Virus record (IMG/VR): IMGVR_UViG_3300042907_001522
Coordinates: 1-27,408 of that record
Reading direction: 5' to 3' (one strand)
Source: a virus
Length of the DNA stretch: 27,408 bases
Shown: positions 12,129 through 21,005 of the stretch, piece after piece
Layout of the letters: every line of letters begins with the position of its first letter
How positions within the stretch are numbered: the first letter of the stretch is position 1
Notes under the pieces: generated by a model
What the model was told of the DNA's origin: nothing
Databases searched by the model: none
Seen by the model: the letters and a program-made list of their open reading frames with translations, nothing else
Position numbers and translations under genes: made by a program

Positions 12129-12132
12129 GACT

Positions 12133-12270
12133 ATGAAAAACTTAATTAATTACTTTACACCAAGAACCGAAGAACACAAGCAATTTTTAACATGCTTTTT
12201 AGGCACTCTAGCGTTCTTTTTTATATTGTCTAATATATTTTATTGTTTAATTTATTTTAAAGCCTTGTAA
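12133..12270 (+). CDS. Small membrane protein (45 aa)
   Basis: ATG at 12133, 4 bp after the previous stop, to TAA at 12268-12270. The N-terminal 18 residues are polar (NYFTPRTEEHKQ) and residues about 19-43 are strongly hydrophobic (LTCFLGTLAFFFILSNIFYC), so a single membrane span is expected. No family is recognised. It may act at the host membrane early in infection, for example in superinfection exclusion, but nothing in the sequence proves it. Confidence 0.55.
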   Translation: MKNLINYFTPRTEEHKQFLTCFLGTLAFFFILSNIFYCLIYFKAL

Positions 12271-12271
12271 G

Positions 12272-12604
12272 ATGGAAAATAGAATTTTAGAAGTACACCA
12301 TAGGGAATGGATCTTAAACTACGAATTTTTAGGTTGGCAATACCAAATATTTGGGACTTGGGAATTTAAAGATTATGACGAAGTAGGTGAATTTGCATTT
12401 ATTGAACTTGATGTTGAAGTTAGTGAAAAATGGATAATTGAAACTGATGACCATTTACAACCGCATATTATTAATATTCGTATTTTAGAAGATGTACGCC
12501 TTGAGATGCAGGAAATAATAAATTCCGATTTAGCAAATTATAACTTTTGGGAATGGAAGACAAGCAATGACGAAAGCAACTATAATTTTTACCACGAACT
12601 ATGA
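12272..12604 (+). CDS. Hypothetical acidic Trp-rich protein
   Basis: This 110-aa protein is acidic and aromatic-rich: seven Trp, including WILNYEFLGWQYQIFGTW (13-30) and NFWEWKTSNDESNYNFYHEL at the C-terminus. There is no signal peptide or membrane segment, and I do not recognise it. It starts 1 bp after the previous gene and its stop overlaps the next start (ATGA at 12601), so it belongs to the same early operon. Acidic, small and early is compatible with an anti-host or DNA-mimic role, but that is speculation. Confidence 0.65.
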   Translation: MENRILEVHHREWILNYEFLGWQYQIFGTWEFKDYDEVGEFAFIELDVEVSEKWIIETDDHLQPHIINIRILEDVRLEMQEIINSDLANYNFWEWKTSNDESNYNFYHEL

Positions 12605-12885
12605 AAGCAGGAACTATATATGACCAATTAGATTGGTGGCAAAGACAATGGCGAGGTTCATTTGACTTAATGTTATATTTAGAAATATGTAGAATTAAAA
12701 AAAACGAAAACCAAAAACAAAAAACTATGAAAAGATACAAAGCAACATTTAAAACTTGGGCGTATGTTGGCGCTCCAATGAAATTAGAAACAAGGATAGT
12801 TGAAGCATATGACTTCCAGCACGTTAAAAACTTAATACAAAAAAACGATGACATTATAATTGAAATTAAACAAATAGAACAATGA
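12601..12885 (+). CDS. Hypothetical protein, possibly two-part
   Basis: This 94-aa reading frame starts at 12601 (ATGA overlap with the previous gene). Its first 42 residues are Trp- and Lys-rich (DQLDWWQRQWRGSFDLMLYL). From M43 (12727) the sequence changes to a compact beta-alpha-like domain (MKRYKATFKTWAYVGAPM to the end) that begins with a good AAAAACTATG leader. The 12727 ATG may be the true start of a 52-aa protein or a second internal start. No family is recognised. Confidence 0.6.
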   Translation: MKAGTIYDQLDWWQRQWRGSFDLMLYLEICRIKKNENQKQKTMKRYKATFKTWAYVGAPMKLETRIVEAYDFQHVKNLIQKNDDIIIEIKQIEQ

Positions 12886-12941
12886 TAGAATTAATAAAAG
12901 AAATTAAATATAGAGAAAATGGACGAACTAACAGTATTTAA
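12882..12941 (+). CDS. Mini-ORF (19 aa), possible relic of a gene start
   Basis: An ATG at 12882, overlapping the previous stop as ATGA, opens only 19 codons. Its first 24 nt are nearly identical to the first 24 nt of the gene at 13386 (both encode MIELIKEI). It overlaps the next start at 12919. It may be a remnant of a duplicated 5' end, or a leader that couples translation. It is probably not a functional protein. Confidence 0.3.
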   Translation: MIELIKEIKYRENGRTNSI

Positions 12942-13173
12942 AAATAGACTTGAGAAGATAGGTATTAAAATTACTCTTACAACAAATATACCTTGGATAT
13001 ATCTTGAGTCTGTAAATGGGAACAAAATAAAGTATGATGATTTCAATTCTAATCATGGTTACACTATTGCTTGGCATCCTATAAAAGAAGGTGAAAAGAT
13101 AAAACTTAACTATGACATAAAAAGAACATTTAAAATAATTAGAAAATATGGGAAAGGTAATACTAGAGTTTGA
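12919..13173 (+). CDS. Hypothetical protein (84 aa)
   Basis: This 84-aa protein is basic and beta-rich (IKITLTTNIPWIYLESVNGNKI; GYTIAWHPIKEGEKIKLNYDI) with a Lys/Arg-rich C-terminus (KRTFKIIRKYGKGNTRV). It contains no signal or membrane segment. Small phage proteins of this layout exist in Flavobacterium phages, but I cannot assign a function. Its 3' end overlaps the next gene by 26 bp. Confidence 0.65.
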   Translation: MDELTVFKNRLEKIGIKITLTTNIPWIYLESVNGNKIKYDDFNSNHGYTIAWHPIKEGEKIKLNYDIKRTFKIIRKYGKGNTRV

Positions 13174-13384
13174 CTCTATAGAAGAGAAAGACGATGCAAG
13201 AATGGCGTTAGATGGCTATAAATGGAAAAACGCAATGTGGGAATTAGACCAATTGCTTCGAGGCGCTGCGAAATATGGTTCTTTTGAGAATAGAGAAGCT
13301 ACGGAAGCTGAAAGAGATATGGCCGATAAAGTAAGAGATGCTATAAGAGACATAATAAATGAACACAATTTAAACTTAGAATAA
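13148..13384 (+). CDS. Conserved phage protein of unknown function (78 aa)
   Basis: This 78-aa acidic, helical protein has the signature ILEFDSIEEKDDARMALDGYKWKNAMWELDQLLRG (5-39) followed by AAKYGSF and a C-terminal DKVRDAIRDIINEHNLNL. I recognise this pattern from small conserved proteins in many phage early regions, without a demonstrated function. It overlaps the upstream gene and is followed after 1 bp by the DnaA-like gene. Confidence 0.75.
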   Translation: MGKVILEFDSIEEKDDARMALDGYKWKNAMWELDQLLRGAAKYGSFENREATEAERDMADKVRDAIRDIINEHNLNLE

Positions 13385-13385
13385 A

Positions 13386-13742
13386 ATGATAGAACTAATA
13401 AAAGAAATAATAGAACAAGACGGACTTGGAAAAAAAAACCGAAAACGTGAAATAATACACAGAAAAATTTATTTATTTAATGCTCTTAGAAATGAAGGTT
13501 ACACTTTAAAAAGAATAGGCGACTTATTTAATATGCACCACGCTTCAATTCTGCATGGTTTAAATACCTACCAAAATTTAGTAGATACAAAAGACAAGCA
13601 ATTAAAACTTGACATTGAGTATTACGAACTTTTGTTAAAAAACAATAAGCCTAATATAGACTTATTAAGTGAAATTAAAAAAGCTAAAAACTTAAATGAC
13701 CTAAGAATTATTCAACAAAGACTTGCAAATGAACTTTATTAA
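13386..13742 (+). CDS. DnaA domain IV-like DNA-binding protein
   Basis: This 118-aa protein has an HTH-like core, YTLKRIGDLFNMHHASILHGLNTYQNL (39-65), that resembles the DnaA C-terminal origin-binding domain: an HTH followed by the signature His-x-Ser-Ile/Val-Leu-His (HHASILHGL, 51-59). No AAA+ ATPase domain is present, so only the DNA-binding half of a DnaA-like protein is seen. The C-terminal part (about 85-118) is helical. It may bind the phage origin, or DnaA boxes on the host chromosome, to redirect replication; this is inference. It ends just before the promoter at 13754. Confidence 0.7.
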   Translation: MIELIKEIIEQDGLGKKNRKREIIHRKIYLFNALRNEGYTLKRIGDLFNMHHASILHGLNTYQNLVDTKDKQLKLDIEYYELLLKNNKPNIDLLSEIKKAKNLNDLRIIQQRLANELY

Positions 13743-13753
13743 AAAAATATATT

Positions 13754-13761
13754 TATATTTG
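13754..13761 (+). promoter_or_regulatory. Bacteroidota-type promoter for the modification operon
   Basis: TATATTTG fits TAnnTTTG. The 45 bp from 13738 to 13782 are identical to 15892-15936, so the promoter and its 5' leader (TAACTAACTTAAAAA) are duplicated. No clear -33 TTG is visible in the A-rich upstream stretch. The start ATG is at 13790, 28 bp after the element. Confidence 0.75.
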
Positions 13762-13789
13762 CATATAACTAACTTAAAAAAATTAAACT

Positions 13790-14053
13790 ATGAACATTTT
13801 AGAAAAAGCGAATGAAATAATAAATACTCGTTCGGAGGAAAAGGAAAGAATGTATGGACCATTTGAGGAAGGAATGGAAAGAGCTGCTAAAATAGCTTCT
13901 GGATGCACCGGCAAGGACTTTACAGCGAATGATATGTACATTTGCTTAGTAGCATTAAAGCTTTCTAGGCAATCTTACAATCATAAAGAAGATAACCTAT
14001 TAGACGCAGTTGCGTATTTAGCAAGTTTAAACAATTACTTAAATAAAAAATAA
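13790..14053 (+). CDS. DUF6378-like phage protein
   Basis: This 87-aa protein starts at the first ATG after the promoter. It has EKERMYGPFEEGMERAAKIAS (17-37), TGKDFTANDMYICLVALKLSRQ (40-61) and KEDNLLDAVAYLASLNNYL (66-84), the pattern of the DUF6378 family of small helical phage proteins found near nucleotide-metabolism genes. The Glu- and Asp-containing helices recall all-alpha NTP pyrophosphatases, but no activity is established. It is the first gene of the operon that continues into the glycosyltransferase-like and hydroxymethylase-like genes. Confidence 0.7.
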   Translation: MNILEKANEIINTRSEEKERMYGPFEEGMERAAKIASGCTGKDFTANDMYICLVALKLSRQSYNHKEDNLLDAVAYLASLNNYLNKK

Positions 14054-14058
14054 AAATT

Positions 14059-15096
14059 ATGAAAATTTTATACACAGGAAGTACCGCTAAACAAACAGAC
14101 GATTTAGCATACACAAGAGCAAGAGTTAAAAGAATTGATGACAACTCTATTATTTGTAATTCTTTAAGAAAACAAGGTTATATTGTTGATAGAAAAAAAA
14201 TAAAATGGGGAGATGATTTGTCAGAATACGACATGGCTATTGTAGGAGTAGGTTGTTTCGGAAGCAATAATTATTCTGGAGATATTTTTAACTCTTTATA
14301 TGCTTTACATGTAATTCCAAAGGTTTTAGTATTTTATGAAGATTGGAAAATTGAAGGCAATATTAGTTCTTTCAAAGGAATGCTAAAGGAAGGAGTTTTG
14401 AAAAAAGCTGTTGAGAAAAAATGGGGCAATGGAGATTATTTTTATGGAGGAGTGGATAACGAAAATTTTGATGTTCAAATAGCAAAAGAAATAATTCAAA
14501 AACTTAGCGATGGTTATTATGACGCTTTAATTCCAGCATTCGATTGGGGAAATAAAGAAATTGTTAGAAAAATAATCAAATCTAAAAACATATACAATTT
14601 AGACCTTACGCCCTATGTTATTGAGAATTGGCAAATAAACCTTAAGCCTGAGCCACAAGAAAAGAAAAAGGAATACATGTTAGCGTCACTTGTTGACCAT
14701 AGAGGTTGGGTTAAGAAAAGCGGAGTAAGATGGAAAGTTAATTATTATGGAGCTAAGTCAATTAAAGACTCAATAAAATTAGATACCGAAACAGAAGTGT
14801 ACAATGAATGTGGAAAATTTTGGGGAATACTTTGTCCTGAATATCCTCACTCAGGAAGTGGTTGGTTTCGTATTAGGTATATTTATTCAGCGCTTCAACG
14901 TTCTATTATTTATACTTCCTACAATGACTTTATGGCTTTAGGTATAAAATGGCTAAGACTTGAAAATTTAAATGACGAAGAATTAAAGGAATACGCTAAT
15001 GAGCAAAGAAAAGCTATTTTTAAGCATTCTTGGAATATAGAAAAATTCGACACTGAACTTAAAAAAATTGTTGATATTAAATTTAATGAAATATGA
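14059..15096 (+). CDS. Putative GT-B glycosyltransferase (candidate DNA base glycosylation)
   Basis: This 345-aa protein begins MKILYTGSTAKQTDDLAYTRARV, a Rossmann-like N-terminus, and has a second domain whose C-terminal part looks like a GT-B donor-binding site: WGILCPEYPHSGSGWFRIRY (255-274), then SALQRSIIYTS and a final helical region with NLNDEELKEYANEQ. I remember similar Gly/Trp/Arg motifs in phage glycosyltransferases linked to modified bases, but the match is by eye. The hydroxymethylase-like gene 140 bp downstream suggests that the acceptor is a hydroxymethylated base in phage DNA, giving protection from host restriction. This is inference; protein or sugar substrates are possible. 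There is no signal peptide, so it is cytoplasmic. Confidence 0.6.
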   Translation: MKILYTGSTAKQTDDLAYTRARVKRIDDNSIICNSLRKQGYIVDRKKIKWGDDLSEYDMAIVGVGCFGSNNYSGDIFNSLYALHVIPKVLVFYEDWKIEGNISSFKGMLKEGVLKKAVEKKWGNGDYFYGGVDNENFDVQIAKEIIQKLSDGYYDALIPAFDWGNKEIVRKIIKSKNIYNLDLTPYVIENWQINLKPEPQEKKKEYMLASLVDHRGWVKKSGVRWKVNYYGAKSIKDSIKLDTETEVYNECGKFWGILCPEYPHSGSGWFRIRYIYSALQRSIIYTSYNDFMALGIKWLRLENLNDEELKEYANEQRKAIFKHSWNIEKFDTELKKIVDIKFNEI

Positions 15097-15260
15097 TAAA
15101 AGATAAACTTTATTCGTTTATATTTGCAGGACAATTAAAAACTGGTAAATATATTGAAAAAAAAACATTGCACGATGGTGTAGTAGTTTATAAATTTACA
15201 GATGGCGTAACAATTTATCCAATAAAAAAAGAAAATATATGTGGCAATTCGAAACAGTAA
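15093..15260 (+). CDS. Small basic protein (55 aa) between the GT and hydroxymethylase genes
   Basis: The ATG at 15093 overlaps the GT stop as ATGA; the frame ends with TAA at 15258-15260, 22 bp into the next gene. The product has about 55 residues and is Lys-rich with beta-strand character (VVVYKFTDGVTIYPIKKENI). Overlaps on both sides argue that it is real and co-translated. No family is recognised. The frame also contains a TTTATATTTGCA sequence at 15117-15128 that resembles the early promoters. Confidence 0.5.
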   Translation: MIKDKLYSFIFAGQLKTGKYIEKKTLHDGVVVYKFTDGVTIYPIKKENICGNSKQ

Positions 15261-15877
15261 CCGAAGCTTTTGAATACTATTATGAAAAAATAGATAGTCA
15301 ACAACAGCAAGAAAATGGAACAAAAGCATTGTACAACCAAATGTTTACAATTTTAGACACTTCTAAAAAAGTAGTTACTTCTAAATTTAGGAATTTTAAA
15401 GTAAGTTATGCTGAAAAGGAATGGGAATGGTATTTAAGCAAAGATAGAAGCGCTGTTGAAATAGCGAAAGTAGCTAAAATATGGTACAATCACATGGATG
15501 ACAGAGGATACGTTAACTCAAATTATGGTTGGCAATGGAGTAGAAACAATCAATTGGAATATGTTATCAATGAACTCAAGAGAGATAAATTTAGTAGACG
15601 TGCTATAATATCTATATACGATGGAAAAGAACACTCTGAGTATTCTAAAGACACTCCTTGTACGTTGTCTATTCAATTTTACTTTACACCAGACTCAAGT
15701 AAATTGCACATGACTGTTTTAATGAGAAGTAACGATTTATGGTTTGGTTTTTGTAATGACGCTTATGCTTTTTTAATGTTACATGAACTTGTTTGCAAAT
15801 CATTAAATGTCGAACAAGGTTTTTATACTCATTACGCTGCTAATTTGCATATTTACGAAAGACACTATAATAAATAA
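15239..15877 (+). CDS. Thymidylate synthase-family dCMP/dUMP hydroxymethylase
   Basis: This 212-aa protein belongs to the thymidylate synthase / pyrimidine hydroxymethylase family. Visible motifs are NSNYGWQW (93-100), SRRAIISIYD (119-128), the catalytic-Cys stretch DTPCTLSIQFYF (138-149, C141), RSNDLWFGFCND (163-174) and LHIYERHY (203-210). T4 gp42, the dCMP hydroxymethylase, has the same NSNYGW and RSNDVVFGFRND pattern, and D174 sits where thymidylate synthase has the Asn that reads uracil. A dCMP substrate is therefore favoured over dUMP, giving 5-hydroxymethyl-dCMP from methylene-tetrahydrofolate. Thymidylate synthase activity is the alternative. The protein is a little shorter than T4 gp42 (246 aa). 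GT-like gene upstream and MazG-type gene downstream support a base-modification pathway. Confidence 0.85.
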   Translation: MWQFETVTEAFEYYYEKIDSQQQQENGTKALYNQMFTILDTSKKVVTSKFRNFKVSYAEKEWEWYLSKDRSAVEIAKVAKIWYNHMDDRGYVNSNYGWQWSRNNQLEYVINELKRDKFSRRAIISIYDGKEHSEYSKDTPCTLSIQFYFTPDSSKLHMTVLMRSNDLWFGFCNDAYAFLMLHELVCKSLNVEQGFYTHYAANLHIYERHYNK

Positions 15878-15907
15878 AAAAAAATAGCTTAATTAAAAAA
15901 ATATATT

Positions 15908-15915
15908 TATATTTG
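15908..15915 (+). promoter_or_regulatory. Bacteroidota-type promoter for the MazG/replication operon
   Basis: TATATTTG fits TAnnTTTG, within the 45-bp block 15892-15936 that is identical to 13738-13782. The ATG of the MazG-like gene is at 15943, 27 bp downstream. No clear -33 TTG is seen. It reads into the operon of MazG-like, PD-(D/E)XK-like, initiator-like and helicase genes. Confidence 0.75.
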
Positions 15916-15942
15916 CATATAACTAACTTAAAAAAAACTACT

Positions 15943-16287
15943 ATGAAACTTAAAAATGAATTTGAACCAATAAGAAATTGGGCTTCCGAAAGAGGAATTT
16001 ACGAAAAAGGAGACGCTAAAACTCAATGTATTAAATTATTTGAGGAAGCAGGCGAGCTATCAAAAGCAATTCTTAATAACGACAAAGATGAAATAATAGA
16101 TGCAATAGGTGATATTGTAGTTGTGTTAACTAATTTAACTGAATTGCTTCCTTTATATAAAGAAGGCGAAACAATGGGTGACATTGAAAAAATTACTATT
16201 GAAGATTGCATAAATTCTGCTTATGAAGTTATAGCGCAAAGAAAAGGTAAAATGATTGGTGGAACTTTTGTAAAAGAAAACTTATGA
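15943..16287 (+). CDS. MazG-like NTP pyrophosphohydrolase (candidate dCTPase-type)
   Basis: The longest frame starts at 15913, inside the promoter, so the ATG at 15943 (after ACTACTATG) is the better start, giving 114 aa. It shows the all-alpha NTP pyrophosphatase metal motif: E34-E35-x-x-E38 (FEEAGELSKAI), then E50-x-x-D53 and D57 (DEIIDAIGDIVVVLTNL). MazG-like enzymes hydrolyse NTPs to NMP and PPi. Close to the hydroxymethylase gene it could act like T4 gp56, removing dCTP to feed dCMP and exclude unmodified cytosine; this is inference from context. It overlaps the next start as ATGA. Confidence 0.85.
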   Translation: MKLKNEFEPIRNWASERGIYEKGDAKTQCIKLFEEAGELSKAILNNDKDEIIDAIGDIVVVLTNLTELLPLYKEGETMGDIEKITIEDCINSAYEVIAQRKGKMIGGTFVKENL

Positions 16288-16703
16288 GAACTTATTTAGC
16301 TAAAATTAAAATACCTAAGGATATTGCAAACAATTCTACAGGTGATATTGGAGAAAAAATTTTCCAATTATGGTTTTCTTTAACATATCAAAACGAAAAT
16401 TTATTTAAACAAAAAGCTGATAGAGACCTTGCTAAAATAGATTTTGCTGACGAAAAAGGTTTTACGTATCAAATAAAATGTACTAAACATAAAACATATA
16501 CATTTAATTGTGCTTTAGATAGCCTGTACGATCATTTAAAAGCTGAGTTATATGTTTTTATACAAATAATAGATGGATATGCTTACATTGAACATTTGCA
16601 CGATAAAGCTTATTGTTTAAATTATGCAAAGTCTTCTTTTACAAATCAAGCTCAAACTTTTATTTATGCTATTGATTTACAACAACAAGTTTTAGAACTA
16701 TGA
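16284..16703 (+). CDS. Putative PD-(D/E)XK nuclease-like protein
   Basis: This 139-aa protein has GDIGEKIFQLWFS (20-32, E24), then KADRDLAKIDF (44-54) and TYQIKCTKHK (61-70). E24, D53 and Q63-x-K65 match the spacing of a PD-(D/E)XK nuclease core with Gln in place of the second acidic residue, as in some restriction-type endonucleases. The match is by eye and weak. The function could be a DNA nuclease acting on host or phage DNA. It overlaps the MazG-like gene (ATGA) and the initiator-like gene (16700). Confidence 0.5.
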   Translation: MRTYLAKIKIPKDIANNSTGDIGEKIFQLWFSLTYQNENLFKQKADRDLAKIDFADEKGFTYQIKCTKHKTYTFNCALDSLYDHLKAELYVFIQIIDGYAYIEHLHDKAYCLNYAKSSFTNQAQTFIYAIDLQQQVLEL

Positions 16704-17326
16704 GTGGTTGGATAAAATTACATAGAAAAATTACTGAATGGGAATGGTTCGAAGACAAAAATACTTTTATTGTTTTTATTACTTTGCTTTTAATGGCAAA
16801 TCATAAGGAAAAAAAGTATAAAGGAATAGTGGTAAAGGTTGGAACTATTGTTACAGGTAGAGATATTTTAGCTAAGCAAACTAAGCTTTCTGTTCAACAA
16901 ATTAGGACCGCTTTAAGCAAACTCAAATTAACCAACGAAATAACCATTGAAACTAGTTCACAAGGTACTGTTATTCAAATAGTTAACTATAAAAAATATC
17001 AACTACTAACCAACGAAATAACCACGGAAGAACCAGTAAATAACCAGCAAGTAGCCAGTAACAAGAATGTAAATAAATTAAATAAAGATATATATAGGAG
17101 TTTCGGTCATTTATTTATAACTGAAGACGAAGTAAATAGGTTATTAGAAACATACACTATTAAACAAATAGACAACATTTTAAACGATATTGAAAACTAT
17201 AAAGGCAATACTAAATATAAAAGTTTATACTTAACGTCTATAAAGTGGCTACATAAAAACGAACCAACATTTGAAGGTATTTCACCCGAAGAAATAAAAG
17301 CTAGAAAACATGGGTTTATTAAATAA
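16700..17326 (+). CDS. HTH replication initiator/helicase-loader-like protein
   Basis: This 208-aa protein begins SGWIKLHRKITEWEWFEDKNTF (2-23), the opening of phage replication-initiator (O/DnaD-like) proteins. A winged-helix region follows, with VKVGTIVTGRDILAKQTKLSVQQIRTALSKLKLTNEI (46-82) and VIQIVNYKKYQ. The C-terminal half is helical with FLITEDEV-like and SLYLTSIKWLHKNEPTF stretches, similar to a DnaD-type module. It probably binds the origin and recruits the helicase encoded by the next gene, which it overlaps by 17 bp. Confidence 0.75.
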   Translation: MSGWIKLHRKITEWEWFEDKNTFIVFITLLLMANHKEKKYKGIVVKVGTIVTGRDILAKQTKLSVQQIRTALSKLKLTNEITIETSSQGTVIQIVNYKKYQLLTNEITTEEPVNNQQVASNKNVNKLNKDIYRSFGHLFITEDEVNRLLETYTIKQIDNILNDIENYKGNTKYKSLYLTSIKWLHKNEPTFEGISPEEIKARKHGFIK

Positions 17327-18200
17327 AGGTTCAGCTATTGAGTATTTATTGAACTACAGAGATGGTAAGATAAAACATGGATTAGAATTAGGAAATGGTT
17401 TAGATGAGTTTATAAAGTTTAAACGAAAACAAGTAAACATAATTCTAGGTCACGATAACGTAGGAAAAACTTATTTTATAAATTGGTATTTTTTAGCATT
17501 AGCTTTAAAGCACAAACTTAAGTTTATTATTTGGAGTGGTGAAAACCAACATGGACAAATTTTACGTGATTTAATTCAAATGTATTCTGGAATAAATTTT
17601 AAAAGTTTATCACACGAAGAAATTGTAAAACATTCAACTTATTTAGAGCAATTTTTTACATTTATTAGCAACGAAAGACTTTACAAACACGATGAATTAT
17701 TCAAAATCTTTGAGGAAAGCGAAGCGGATGTTGCACTTATAGACCCATTTACTGGTTTAGATAGAAGCATGACTTATGAAGGTAACTATCAATTTATGAA
17801 TGCTGCACGACAATTTGTAAATAGAACTGGAATGACAATTTATATAAATACTCATCCAAATACAGAAAGTGGTAGGAGTTCAAACATTTATGTAGACGGC
17901 GATTTCAAAGGACATTTAAAAGCACCATTAAAAGACCATATAGAAGGCGGCAAGGCGTTTACTAATCGTTGTGATGATATGATAGTTATCCACCGACTTA
18001 TAAAGCATGACGTAATGAAATTTGTAACTTGGGTTTCAACTGAAAAAATAAAAGATATGGATACAGGTGGAAAGCATACAGGACTTAATGACCCTGTTTA
18101 TTGTGAGTACAACTATGGACTTGGTTTTACTATCTATGGAAACGATGCGTTAAAAAGCTATAGACCAAAACACGAAAATAAATTAAAAACACTTTTTTAA
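17310..18200 (+). CDS. RecA/DnaB-fold replicative helicase-like ATPase
   Basis: This 296-aa protein carries Walker A GHDNVGKT (47-54) and Walker B VALIDPF (141-147, D145), followed by a switch-like NTHPN (about 175-180) and a C-terminal GKAFTNRCDDMIVIHR (210-225) of the kind found in RecA-fold helicases. It has the core fold only; no primase or large N-terminal domain is seen. The best reading is a phage replicative helicase or helicase-like ATPase, loaded by the preceding initiator-like protein. A gp4/DnaB-like recombinase-type ATPase is the alternative. Confidence 0.75.
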   Translation: MGLLNKGSAIEYLLNYRDGKIKHGLELGNGLDEFIKFKRKQVNIILGHDNVGKTYFINWYFLALALKHKLKFIIWSGENQHGQILRDLIQMYSGINFKSLSHEEIVKHSTYLEQFFTFISNERLYKHDELFKIFEESEADVALIDPFTGLDRSMTYEGNYQFMNAARQFVNRTGMTIYINTHPNTESGRSSNIYVDGDFKGHLKAPLKDHIEGGKAFTNRCDDMIVIHRLIKHDVMKFVTWVSTEKIKDMDTGGKHTGLNDPVYCEYNYGLGFTIYGNDALKSYRPKHENKLKTLF

Positions 18201-18201
18201 A

Positions 18202-18492
18202 ATGGAATTTGAATTATTGATTAGTAGAATTAACTTAAACTACACTTGTTTAAAATTACAAGTAAGCATTGATGAAATAAAAACCAAACATCCAAACCGA
18301 ACAGATTTAATAAGTTCAATGGAGCAAAGTTTACACGAAATAAAAAAAGCAATGGTTGTTTATGACACTTTGGAAAAGGAATTTAGAAGTTCAATGCAAT
18401 CTAACTTTAATCTTCAAAAAATAAATTTAGAACAAATTCAAGAAATACAAAACCTTAAAAGACAAATAGAATTTAATAACTTAGAACTTTGA
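18202..18492 (+). CDS. Hypothetical coiled-coil protein
   Basis: This 96-aa protein is predicted to be almost entirely helical, with a coiled coil in its C-terminal half (LQKINLEQIQEIQNLKRQIEFNNLEL). There is no membrane segment. It starts 1 bp after the helicase gene and its TGA overlaps the next start (TTGA). It is unrecognised; a replication accessory role is possible from position only. Confidence 0.65.
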   Translation: MEFELLISRINLNYTCLKLQVSIDEIKTKHPNRTDLISSMEQSLHEIKKAMVVYDTLEKEFRSSMQSNFNLQKINLEQIQEIQNLKRQIEFNNLEL

Positions 18493-19013
18493 AAGAAATA
18501 ACTAAAAAATGCTTTAATTGTAAAGAACGTTTTTCACCATTTAATATGTTGCAAAAGTTTTGCTTAAAAAATGAATGCATAAAAGCAATGATAGAGATAC
18601 AGAAAGAAAAAGAATGGCTAAAAAAGAAAAAGAAGTTAGTAGAAAACTTAAAAACGCCAAACGATTACTTAAAAATAGCACAACAGGTTTTCAATAAGTT
18701 TATACGTCAAAGAGATAACGGTTTAAATTGTATTAGTTGTGATAAACCTTGCAAAAAAGAAAACGCTGGGCATTACTATTCTCAAGGTGGACACTCTAAC
18801 GTAAGATTTAATGAAGACAACGTGCACTTACAATGCGAACATTGCAATACTTATTTAAGTGGTAACCTATTAAACTATCAAGTAGCTATAGAAAAAAGAA
18901 TTGGAGCTGAAAGATTAATGAACTTACAAGCAATTGCACATGATACAAAGAAGTGGACAAAAGACGAATTAAAAGAATTAATAGAATTTTATAAAAAAAA
19001 AATTAAAAAATAG
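18489..19013 (+). CDS. ninG: NinG-like recombination protein
   Basis: This 174-aa protein fits the NinG (Rap) family. N-terminal zinc-type cysteines C8, C11, C25 and C30 are followed by a Lys-rich helix (EKEWLKKKKK), KFIRQRDNGLNCISCDKPC (72-90), GHYYSQGGHSNVRFNEDN (about 96-113), HLQCEHCNTYLSGN and a C-terminal basic tail. NinG stimulates RecA-independent and Red-type recombination at branched DNA. The start is TTG at 18489: the first in-frame ATG (codon 20) would remove C8 and C11. The TTGA overlap with the previous stop supports it. Confidence 0.85.
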   Translation: MKEITKKCFNCKERFSPFNMLQKFCLKNECIKAMIEIQKEKEWLKKKKKLVENLKTPNDYLKIAQQVFNKFIRQRDNGLNCISCDKPCKKENAGHYYSQGGHSNVRFNEDNVHLQCEHCNTYLSGNLLNYQVAIEKRIGAERLMNLQAIAHDTKKWTKDELKELIEFYKKKIKK

Positions 19014-19035
19014 TCTCTATATAAATAATTATGTT

Positions 19036-19043
19036 TATATTTG
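19036..19043 (+). promoter_or_regulatory. Bacteroidota-type promoter for the recombination operon
   Basis: TATATTTG (in TTTATATTTGCATATAA) fits TAnnTTTG and is followed by a TAACTAACTTAAAAA leader like those at 13754 and 15908. The ATG of the next gene is at 19077, 33 bp downstream. No clear -33 TTG is visible. Confidence 0.75.
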
Positions 19044-19076
19044 CATATAATTATTAACTAACTTAAAAATTTAACT

Positions 19077-19265
19077 ATGAAAGATGTAACTAAAATGAAT
19101 GTTATTGGAGAAGTCATTACTTTTGATGATAGAACTTATGACATAGTAGATGTTATTAATGAGAATGAAAACTTGTTTTATGTGTGCAATTTTTGGTACA
19201 AGAAACACAAAAGCATACCTCAATTAATTCCATCTCAATTTGTAAAAACGTATTATAACAACTAA
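19077..19265 (+). CDS. Hypothetical small protein (62 aa)
   Basis: This 62-aa protein is the first gene behind its own promoter. It is beta-rich (VIGEVITFDDRTYDIVDVINENENLFYVCNFWY, 10-42) with a basic tail. There is no signal peptide. A small SH3-like or KTSC-like nucleic-acid-related fold is possible but unproven. It precedes the ERF annealing gene in the recombination operon. Confidence 0.6.
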   Translation: MKDVTKMNVIGEVITFDDRTYDIVDVINENENLFYVCNFWYKKHKSIPQLIPSQFVKTYYNN

Positions 19266-19275
19266 AACTAAAACT

Positions 19276-19794
19276 ATGAAACATTTATTTAAAGCATTAG
19301 CAGATTTTCAACAAGAAGTACCAGTAATTCACAGAGCAACACAAGGTTATGGTTACACTTACGCTGACCTACCTAAAATTTTTGAAGTAATTAACCCACT
19401 ACTAAAAAAACATGGCTTAGGGTTTACACAATTAATTTATGGAGATAAAATAGCAACTTGTTTATTTCATATTGAAAGTGGTGAAAGCATTGAAAGCAAA
19501 ATTGATATTCCACAGGGAGTAATTTTAAAAGGAATGAACGAGTTTCAAGTTTTAGGAAGCGCAATTACTTATTTAAGACGCTACTCTTTAAGTTCTATGC
19601 TTGGCTTAGTAACAGACAAAGACACAGATGCTTCAGGTGAACAAGTAAAAAGCGAACCAAAGAAACCATCAATAGACAATAAACGATTTGAAGAGGCACT
19701 TGTGGCTATTGAAAATGGCAAGTACACTGTAGCTCAACTCAAAGCAGGATTCGAATTAAGTGAGGCACAAACAAAAGCTTTATTGTTATGTTAA
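19276..19794 (+). CDS. erf: ERF-family single-strand annealing protein
   Basis: This 172-aa protein has the ERF family pattern: QGYGYTYADLPKIFEVINPLLKKHGLGF (23-50), LFHIESGESIESKIDIPQG (63-81) and FQVLGSAITYLRRYSLSSMLGLVTDKDTDA (90-119). ERF proteins anneal complementary single strands in recombination-dependent replication and genome circularisation. The C-terminal tail (about 125-172) is variable, as usual. It overlaps by 7 bp the exonuclease gene, its natural partner. Confidence 0.9.
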   Translation: MKHLFKALADFQQEVPVIHRATQGYGYTYADLPKIFEVINPLLKKHGLGFTQLIYGDKIATCLFHIESGESIESKIDIPQGVILKGMNEFQVLGSAITYLRRYSLSSMLGLVTDKDTDASGEQVKSEPKKPSIDNKRFEEALVAIENGKYTVAQLKAGFELSEAQTKALLLC

Positions 19795-20462
19795 AAGTAA
19801 GATGTTCAGCTTTAGGAGCTATAATGACGAACCCTCGTTCTAAAACAGAAACGTTAAGTGAAACAACTAAAACTTACGTGAAAGAAATGGTTTTAGAACA
19901 TAAATATGGAATTAGAAAAGAATTTACTTCCAAATACACTGACAAAGGTTTACAGTGTGAAGACGAAGCCATAACTTTGGTTAACGATGTTTTAGGTTTA
20001 GGTTTTATTTTTAAGAACGAAGAACATTTTAATAACGAATGGATAACTGGCACGCCTGATGTAAACACGAATGAAATTTTATTAGATGTAAAATGTAGTT
20101 ATGAAGCGCATACCTTTCCATTTTTTGAAGATAAAATACCAAATAAAGGTTACTACTATCAATTAATGGGTTACATGTGGTTAACAGGAAAGACTGAGTC
20201 GTTATTATGTTATTGCTTAGTCAACACACCAATAGAAATTGTAGAAGACGAGGTAAGAAGAGAACATTGGAAACATTTTAAAATTGACGAAGACTTGGAA
20301 ATACGAGAATTTGTAGAAAAGAAACATAACTTTGACCATATACCTAATACAAGCAAGGTAAAAGTCTTTAAGATTGAAAGAGATGAAACAGTAATATGGG
20401 AAATACAGAAAAGAATAGAAGAAGTAAGAATTTATTTTAATCAATTAATAGAAACAATATGA
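19788..20462 (+). CDS. PD-(D/E)XK recombination exonuclease (YqaJ/Cas4-like)
   Basis: This 224-aa protein has KGLQCEDEAITLVNDVLG (53-70, E58/E60), WITGTPDV (85-92, D91) and ILLDVKCS (97-104, D100-x-K102), followed by KGYYYQLMGYMWLTG (about 118-132). This is the PD-(D/E)XK core of lambda-exonuclease/YqaJ/Cas4-type nucleases. With the ERF gene upstream it makes a two-component recombination system: 5'-3' resection, then annealing. Its stop overlaps the next small ORF as ATGA. Confidence 0.85.
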   Translation: MLKVRCSALGAIMTNPRSKTETLSETTKTYVKEMVLEHKYGIRKEFTSKYTDKGLQCEDEAITLVNDVLGLGFIFKNEEHFNNEWITGTPDVNTNEILLDVKCSYEAHTFPFFEDKIPNKGYYYQLMGYMWLTGKTESLLCYCLVNTPIEIVEDEVRREHWKHFKIDEDLEIREFVEKKHNFDHIPNTSKVKVFKIERDETVIWEIQKRIEEVRIYFNQLIETI

Positions 20463-20551
20463 AAGAAAAAACAATAGCAATAGTTATTTGGATAGCAATT
20501 TATGGTTTTGCTGCCGTTGGTATTTACAATTTATTTAATTGGCTGATATGA
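20459..20551 (+). CDS. Mini membrane protein (30 aa)
   Basis: The ATG at 20459 overlaps the exonuclease stop (ATGA), and the TGA at 20549-20551 overlaps the next ATG at 20548. After a charged MKEK start, nearly all 30 residues are hydrophobic (TIAIVIWIAIYGFAAVGIYN), giving one membrane span. Coupling on both sides and the coherent topology argue that it is real. Function unknown. Confidence 0.55.
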   Translation: MKEKTIAIVIWIAIYGFAAVGIYNLFNWLI

Positions 20552-20790
20552 CACCACAAGAAAAGGCAAAAGATTTATACGATAGTTATTGGTATTGTTT
20601 ATTCCAATCTAATATTGAAAAAAGAAATTATTGGAGCAAACAATGTGCATTAATAGCAGTTGATGAGATTATTAAAGTTTGTCCATATATAAGACAAAAA
20701 GATTTGGAGACTTTACAACAATTAAACGCTCCTAATATTTACTTTGTAGAATATTGGAACGAAGTTAAACAAGAAATAGAAAAACTATGA
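20548..20790 (+). CDS. Hypothetical phage protein (80 aa)
   Basis: The ATG at 20548 is preferred over an upstream in-frame TTG at 20539, because it overlaps the preceding TGA. The 80-aa product begins MTPQEKAKDLYDSYW and has NYWSKQCALIAVDEIIKVCPY (29-49) and a C-terminal helix. I recognise the MTPxEKA...AKQCALIAVDEI pattern from many small Bacteroidota phage proteins in recombination operons, without known function. Confidence 0.75.
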   Translation: MTPQEKAKDLYDSYWYCLFQSNIEKRNYWSKQCALIAVDEIIKVCPYIRQKDLETLQQLNAPNIYFVEYWNEVKQEIEKL

Positions 20791-21005
20791 ACATACAAAT
20801 ACAAGACAAAATAGTATTAAGTGTTATGGCTCGTTTTAAAGAACGTTCAGAGCTAGGAATAAAGAAATACCAAAAAACGTTAGAACGAACTGATTTGAGC
20901 ACGTTAGATTGGTTACAACACGCACAAGAAGAAGCAATGGACTTTGTTTTATATCTTGAGCGATTAAAACATGAATACAAACGAGAAACAAATAAAAATA
21001 AATAA
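20787..21005 (+). CDS. Small phage protein, possibly MazG-like (72 aa)
   Basis: This 72-aa protein has RFKERSELGIKKYQKTLERTDLSTLDWLQHAQEEAMDFVLYLERLKHE (16-62), a common phage pattern. E48-E49-x-x-D52 in a helix recalls half of the all-alpha NTP pyrophosphatase metal motif, but the second acidic helix is missing, so activity is doubtful. It overlaps its upstream neighbour (ATGA) and precedes the SSB-like gene. Confidence 0.65.
   Translation: MNIQIQDKIVLSVMARFKERSELGIKKYQKTLERTDLSTLDWLQHAQEEAMDFVLYLERLKHEYKRETNKNK

Follow-up and report, generated by a model that had tools for sequence, protein, structure and literature searches.

A predicted T4-like cytosine hypermodification cassette with its glycosyltransferase in a swap slot

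We studied a group of adjoining genes in a viral genome fragment, IMG/VR record IMGVR_UViG_3300042907_001522, whose full 27,408 bases (classed as linear) make up the window analyzed here. Three open reading frames (ORFs) on the + strand form its core: a predicted glycosyltransferase (GT) acting on 5-hydroxymethylcytosine (hmC) in DNA (14059–15096, 345 aa), a predicted dCMP hydroxymethylase of the T4 gp42 type with a thymidylate synthase (TS) fold (15239–15877, 212 aa), and a MazG-type NTP pyrophosphohydrolase (15913–16287, 124 aa from a TTG). We refer to them by their first positions. A preliminary description had placed the same three genes here; all three are there, but the unit is wider. 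It also takes in a DUF6378 gene (13790–14053, +, 87 aa; PF19905, 48.8 bits, cut-off 27.1) directly upstream of 14059 and a 55-aa ORF (15093–15260, +) that lies between 14059 and 15239 and overlaps both, giving the order DUF6378–[slot]–small ORF–hydroxymethylase–MazG, with 14059 in the slot. Compared with the relative L002 (L and G numbers are our handles), the ratio of nonsynonymous to synonymous substitution (dN/dS) was 0.12 for the GT, 0.06 for the TS-type gene, 0.07 for MazG, and 0.05 for DUF6378, that is, purifying selection; because the DUF6378–GT–TS–MazG order also recurs in relatives, the cassette is more than a chance grouping. We put at roughly 80% the probability that these genes amount to a cytosine hypermodification cassette like that of T4, carried by a small tailed phage (contigs of relatives span 30–37 kb), probably of Flavobacteriia, with the final GT step encoded in a swap slot. 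The nearest terminase relatives are Flavobacterium phages (54%), a similarity that suggests a flavobacterial host.

The 15239 product belongs to the TS fold family PF00303 (94.3 bits, cut-off 24.3, E = 8.9e-27), and its best solved relative is T4 dCMP hydroxymethylase (1b49, E = 3.3e-17), with the first thymidylate synthase (6auj) behind at 1e-12. An NCBIfam search returned thymidylate synthases only, every one far below its cut-off; the closest phage relatives are Bacteroides phage genes (50%–51%) annotated as deoxycytidylate 5-hydroxymethyltransferase. Aligned with T4 gp42 and Escherichia coli ThyA, whose numbering we use, 15239 has the gp42 state at Glu58, Tyr94, Cys146, Thr147, Arg166, Asp177, His207, and Tyr209; like gp42 it carries Thr in place of His147 and Asp in place of Asn177. 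The family alignment has 95 rows, including repeats of one contig and named phages, and keeps the Cys and the Thr in 95/95 rows, the Glu in 94/95, and Asp177 in all 94 rows with a letter at that position. Just six residues follow the Tyr209 place, against 28 in gp42 and 55 in ThyA, and this short C terminus is common to most of the relatives we looked at. A hydroxymethylase active site must let water in, and the short C terminus fits such an enzyme. The residues thus point to a dCMP-type, not a dUMP-type, active site, in keeping with the earlier assignment of 15239 as gp42-like and not merely a thymidylate synthase; on the same residues, we judged a plain TS or a methylase the less likely identity. 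In a maximum-likelihood tree of TS-type proteins, T4 gp42 and copy a of Bacteroides phage BF503P2 sat on long branches, and the deep forks were weak. BF503P2 itself has two hydroxymethylase-type genes (L013, 5109–5915 and 7989–8669), one with Leu at the catalytic Glu58 place.

The 14059 product matched no Pfam or NCBIfam family, a profile search of the PDB with its alignment gave no convincing match, and the PHROG family it does match (14998, 3.7e-8) is labeled "unknown function." An AlphaFold2 model built from a 63-row alignment (predicted local distance difference test [pLDDT] of 94.2, predicted template modeling score [pTM] of 0.90) has a GT-B fold across the whole chain. T4 beta-glucosyltransferase (BGT) came first among solved structures both in Foldseek (1qkj, 5.7e-7) and in VIA-align (1nzd, Z 18.1, 299 aligned residues, root mean square deviation 4.7, 13% identity), so the modeled structure sides with the GT-B enzyme first proposed over an unrelated fold. 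G7, W217, W269, and R273 are invariant in all 63 rows, and an acidic residue at 94 is universal. Relatives of 14059 were encoded by 527 of 566 stretches matching our search patterns in viral contigs and by one of 301 in the genomes of 84,980 bacterial and archaeal species, with slightly different patterns in the two scans. This is probably a family of DNA glycosyltransferases for which Pfam and NCBIfam hold no model.

Further evidence comes from what else occupies the same position. We collected 81 contigs with a TS-type gene, the window included and repeats removed. Most loci share one layout around that gene, DUF6378–[slot]–hydroxymethylase–MazG, often with a further small gene, and the content of the slot varies: a homologue of T4 beta-GT in 34 contigs, the 14059 family in 18, a homologue of T4 alpha-GT in 12, f58 or the trio f73–f69–f58 in nine, and f131 in three (f numbers are our handles for protein families). 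The remaining five are cut or otherwise arranged; two of them (L007 and L057) have a 14059 relative beside the TS gene. The alpha-GT family was assigned by PF11440 (2.8e-15) and phrog_2888, and the beta-GT family by phrog_7922 and an hhalign probability of 99.4% to T4 BGT, in each case for a single representative or for the alignment of the family.

We compared the flanks of five pairs of contigs with differing slots. L112 (alpha-GT) and L014 (an FkbM methyltransferase plus the 14059 family) are 97.8% identical over 1276 bases on one side and 98.1% over 4373 on the other, and their slots are non-homologous. Flanks were 93.2% and 94.6% identical between L107 (alpha-GT) and L108 (beta-GT). L016, which carries the 14059 family, matched L090 (alpha-GT) at 92.2% on either side of the slot, L091 (f131) at 91.9% and 91.7%, and L097 (beta-GT) at 85.1% and 86.0%. 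The window and its close relative L005 are 98.3% identical over 12130–12885 and 99.2% over 15233–20551, and only 85.6% over 12889–15056; their GT proteins are 69% identical. This exchange with homologues of the T4 alpha-GT and beta-GT supports a T4-like cassette more strongly than anything available to the preliminary description.

Some slots hold genes of another kind. In L142–L149 and L188–L205 (for example, L147, 2288–4998), the slot is the trio of a GDSH-motif protein (f73), an uncharacterized protein (f69), and an enzyme dependent on pyridoxal 5′-phosphate (PLP; f58). A second scan placed the trio between DUF6378 and TS in 16 of 18 loci, several of which repeat contigs of the TS scan; the other two end before the TS gene. 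We regard the trio as a candidate non-sugar hmC module. The predicted structure of f69 had a pLDDT of 55, and its alignment found no convincing match in a PDB profile search. The 440-aa f131 protein, sole slot occupant in L091 (3558–4880), L096, and L098, matched no Pfam, PHROG, or NCBIfam family, and hhalign found no sequence link between it and the 14059 family. Accessory genes also occur in slots (L014, 5203–5853; L030, 865–1509; L123, 3442–4068; L136, 3643–4059), an FkbM methyltransferase with the 14059 family and a cytidylyltransferase-like gene with the beta-GT homologue.

The best 80 of the 527 viral relatives of 14059, counted from gene maps, showed three settings: 18 lie beside a TS-type gene; 33 have a second layout (DUF6378–GT, after which most have f4 and genes for DNA polymerase B and ribonucleotide reductase, families f17, f21, and f24); and 28 have an actinophage-like layout, in which two GT-family genes stand in tandem or on either side of f60. 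One (L006) fits none of these. Seventeen phage records hold a 14059 relative, and five were tested. Four of them, DSL-LC01, Sixama, GMA2, and MW202657, encode a TS carrying Thr147 and Asp177 (D-type). The fifth, C48C1, had no TS match in its record; it has a TET/JBP dioxygenase gene (3.3e-19) that runs at its end into the beginning of the 14059 homologue (L009, 6586–8035). For scale, the window TS finds a match at E ≤ 1e-8 in 1337 of 50,697 phage records, dCMP-type or not. Across 27 records, a TET search gave a match above cut-off in C48C1 only, plus two weak sub-cut-off matches in G017, and the genes that precede the GT in Sixama, GMA2, and MW202657 gave no convincing alignment with the C48C1 TET gene. 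The actinophage-like contigs G017–G022 have a D-type TS in 6/6 and a C5 cytosine methylase in 5/6.

A gene for UDP-galactopyranose mutase follows the GT in L125 and likewise in DSL-LC01, and lies beside the beta-GT in Lactobacillus phage ATCCB; the loci are L125 (2861–4868), L008 (7992–11137), and L187 (2926–5981). This proximity leads us to predict galactofuranose as the sugar donor in all three, and galactofuranosyl-hmC is possible in L125 and ATCCB, which also have a TS-type gene.

The identification of 15913 as MazG-like was borne out by PF03819 (24.6 bits, cut-off 22), PRA-PH (21.3 bits, cut-off 21.3), and PHROG 715 and 1992. Its ORF is listed from the TTG at 15913, and its probable start is 15943 (15943–16287); in L002 and L005 the gene begins at the ATG equivalent to 15943. 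Within four genes of the TS-type gene, a MazG-family gene was found in 74/81 contigs and a DUF6378 gene in 63/81. DUF6378, whose profile had no PDB match, is possibly related to the nucleotide pool. A short ORF between slot and TS gene was scored by script in 57/81 contigs, or 47 after ten unrelated sequences were dropped; dN/dS of the 55-aa ORF against L002 was 0.30. Downstream from MazG, a gene at 16284–16703 keeps its position in several relatives and changes fast (dN/dS 0.53 against L002). A 72-aa protein farther along the window (20787–21005) matches only PHROGs of unknown function, and some loci have its relatives immediately before the slot. By hhalign, neither DUF6378 nor this protein resembled the MazG family (≤0.5%), and the two scored 7% against each other.

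Taken together, the computational evidence gives good support to a cassette that works as the T4 system does. The GT-B fold, the active-site residues, the synteny, and the slot exchange are there to be read directly; the reactions we infer. Fold and active site suggest that 15239 would hydroxymethylate dCMP, and 15913, possibly aided by DUF6378, would deplete dCTP in favor of hm-dCTP. Host kinases, or an unrecognized phage kinase, would have to complete hm-dCTP, a gap in the scheme. After replication, 14059 would transfer a sugar from a nucleotide sugar to hmC in DNA; this role is predicted from its fold, its synteny, and the natural replacement of its gene by alpha-GT and beta-GT genes of the T4 type, and indirectly from its D-type TS and TET partners.

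Several observations pull the other way. Other GT-B enzymes came close to BGT in the structural comparison (SenB, Z 16.7 over 269 residues; T4 alpha-GT, 14.3 over 276), so a special closeness of the 14059 model to BGT is suggestive only. By hhalign, the 14059 family reached a probability of at most 5.6% when compared with the alpha-GT and beta-GT families of the slot and 2.2% with T4 BGT, and it belongs to neither T4 sequence family (PF11440 for alpha-GT); with no sequence link, the likeness to the T4 enzymes is one of fold and position. The candidate catalytic residue D95 is kept in 48/63 rows and lost in the 15 most distant. The 81 contigs, with TS identities of 50%–100%, are one related group because the patterns used to find them came from the window protein. 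Among second-layout contigs (27–205 kb), 14/16 had no TS; the exceptions, G010 and G012, have one canonical TS each plus a second copy (L171 in G010; D-type in G012). The 205-kb contig (L032, G004), with DUF6378–GT beside polymerase and ribonucleotide reductase genes, had no TS, C5 methylase, or TET match. The TS-less contigs are either incomplete, or make hmC another way, or carry a GT with another acceptor. Finally, in 14 cassette contigs (the window and 13 relatives of 30–37 kb, classed as linear and perhaps incomplete), we found no DNMK (gp1, PF21448), Thymidylate_kin, or Cytidylate_kin, the only kinase families sought in the relatives, by a DNMK search that recovered the T4 control; the dNMP kinase reported as not seen is thus missing for three families in these contigs.

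These points leave room for other accounts. It is improbable, in our view, that 15239 methylates dCMP (yielding 5mC, as happens in phage Xp12) or is an ordinary TS, and that 14059 glycosylates host surface sugars, a virion protein, or another target. Such an account gains from the TS fold and from the NCBIfam list, confined to sub-cut-off thymidylate synthases; moreover, one study reports that an engineered Asn177Asp ThyA yields 5-methyl-dCMP (PMC8670742), so Asp177 alone is no proof of hydroxymethylation. The study also names 147 and 177 as the two positions that most clearly tell TS genes of modified-cytosine contigs apart from others (PMC8670742), and 15239 combines Thr147 with Asp177 as T4 gp42 does and ends six residues past the Tyr209 place. 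Slot exchange with families of DNA-hmC glucosyltransferases and the TET gene beside the GT in C48C1 also argue against this account, and the near confinement of the 14059 family to viruses is evidence against a host-surface target. A shade less probable is that hmC is made and 14059 acts before replication on free hm-dCMP or hm-dCTP, or extends a sugar set by another enzyme. A carbamoyltransferase is described as acting on hm-dCTP as well as on DNA (PMC8670742), and several relatives have two GT-family genes in tandem; on the other side, no other GT was found among the 30 window ORFs scanned, leaving 14059 without a first sugar to build on. T4 alpha-GT and beta-GT act on DNA, and it is their families that trade places with 14059. 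Decay into an inactive cassette would account for the short 15239 and the kinase step that was not found, yet dN/dS of 0.05–0.20 for four genes, active-site residues that hardly any family row has lost, and a short C terminus common to most relatives examined make it very improbable.

If the T4-like hypermodification cassette is real, sugar on cytosines should help hide the phage DNA from bacterial defenses. Here a GT of its own sequence family sits in a swap slot, and that family occurs alongside two kinds of hmC source, the TS type and TET. With the gene for the final step in the slot, close relatives would carry different decorations. Our broader proposal, to which we give even odds, is that small Bacteroidota phages reserve the stretch from DUF6378 to the hydroxymethylase as a swap slot for genes that decorate cytosine. 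Three or more GT families that show no sequence similarity to one another would trade there; the 14059 family would form a new class of hmC glycosyltransferase, and some slots would hold a non-sugar module (the PLP enzyme, the GDSH-motif protein, and the uncharacterized protein); close kin would thus wear chemically different DNA coats that evade decoration-specific defenses. The Brig1 defense is reported to depend on one particular decoration, alpha-glucosylation (PMC13216743). Since some defenses are tied to one decoration, the natural near-isogenic phage pairs that differ in their decorating gene could test whether the exchange is driven by defense. For a non-glycosyl cytosine modification, the PLP-containing trio is where to look.

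Like the T4 hmC pathway, the window pairs a TS-fold hydroxymethylase having the active-site states of gp42 with an adjoining GT-B transferase, as b-gt adjoins gene 42 in T4, and with a nearby NTP pyrophosphohydrolase. It departs from T4 in that its GT belongs to another sequence family, its pyrophosphohydrolase is of the MazG type instead of gp56, no gp1-type dNMP kinase was found in the 14 cassette contigs, and the cassette phages are small (∼30 kb), with a GT slot exchanged between families. DSL-LC01, Sixama, GMA2, C48C1, and MW202657 share a GT of the 14059 family, combined with a D-type TS encoded at another site in the genome or with TET next to the GT; unlike the window, DSL-LC01, Sixama, and GMA2 have two GT-family genes and a nearby methylase gene of the f29 family (PF00145), and DSL-LC01 has UDP-galactopyranose mutase. 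The hmC carbamoyltransferase contigs found by MetaGPA likewise have a TS with Asp177 and a non-His147 residue beside PRA-PH/MazG and an hmC-decorating enzyme, which adds a carbamoyl group (PMC8670742) in place of the sugar predicted for the window. Arabinosyl-hmC in RB69 offers a precedent for a diverged GT-B enzyme (ORF003c) that replaces the T4 ones and gives another sugar (PMC6024577); RB69 is a T4-like coliphage, unlike the window phage. Closest in setting are the slot homologues of related contigs, which, unlike 14059, are recognizable members of the T4 alpha-GT (PF11440) and beta-GT families and which occupy the same place as 14059, between DUF6378 and the hydroxymethylase.

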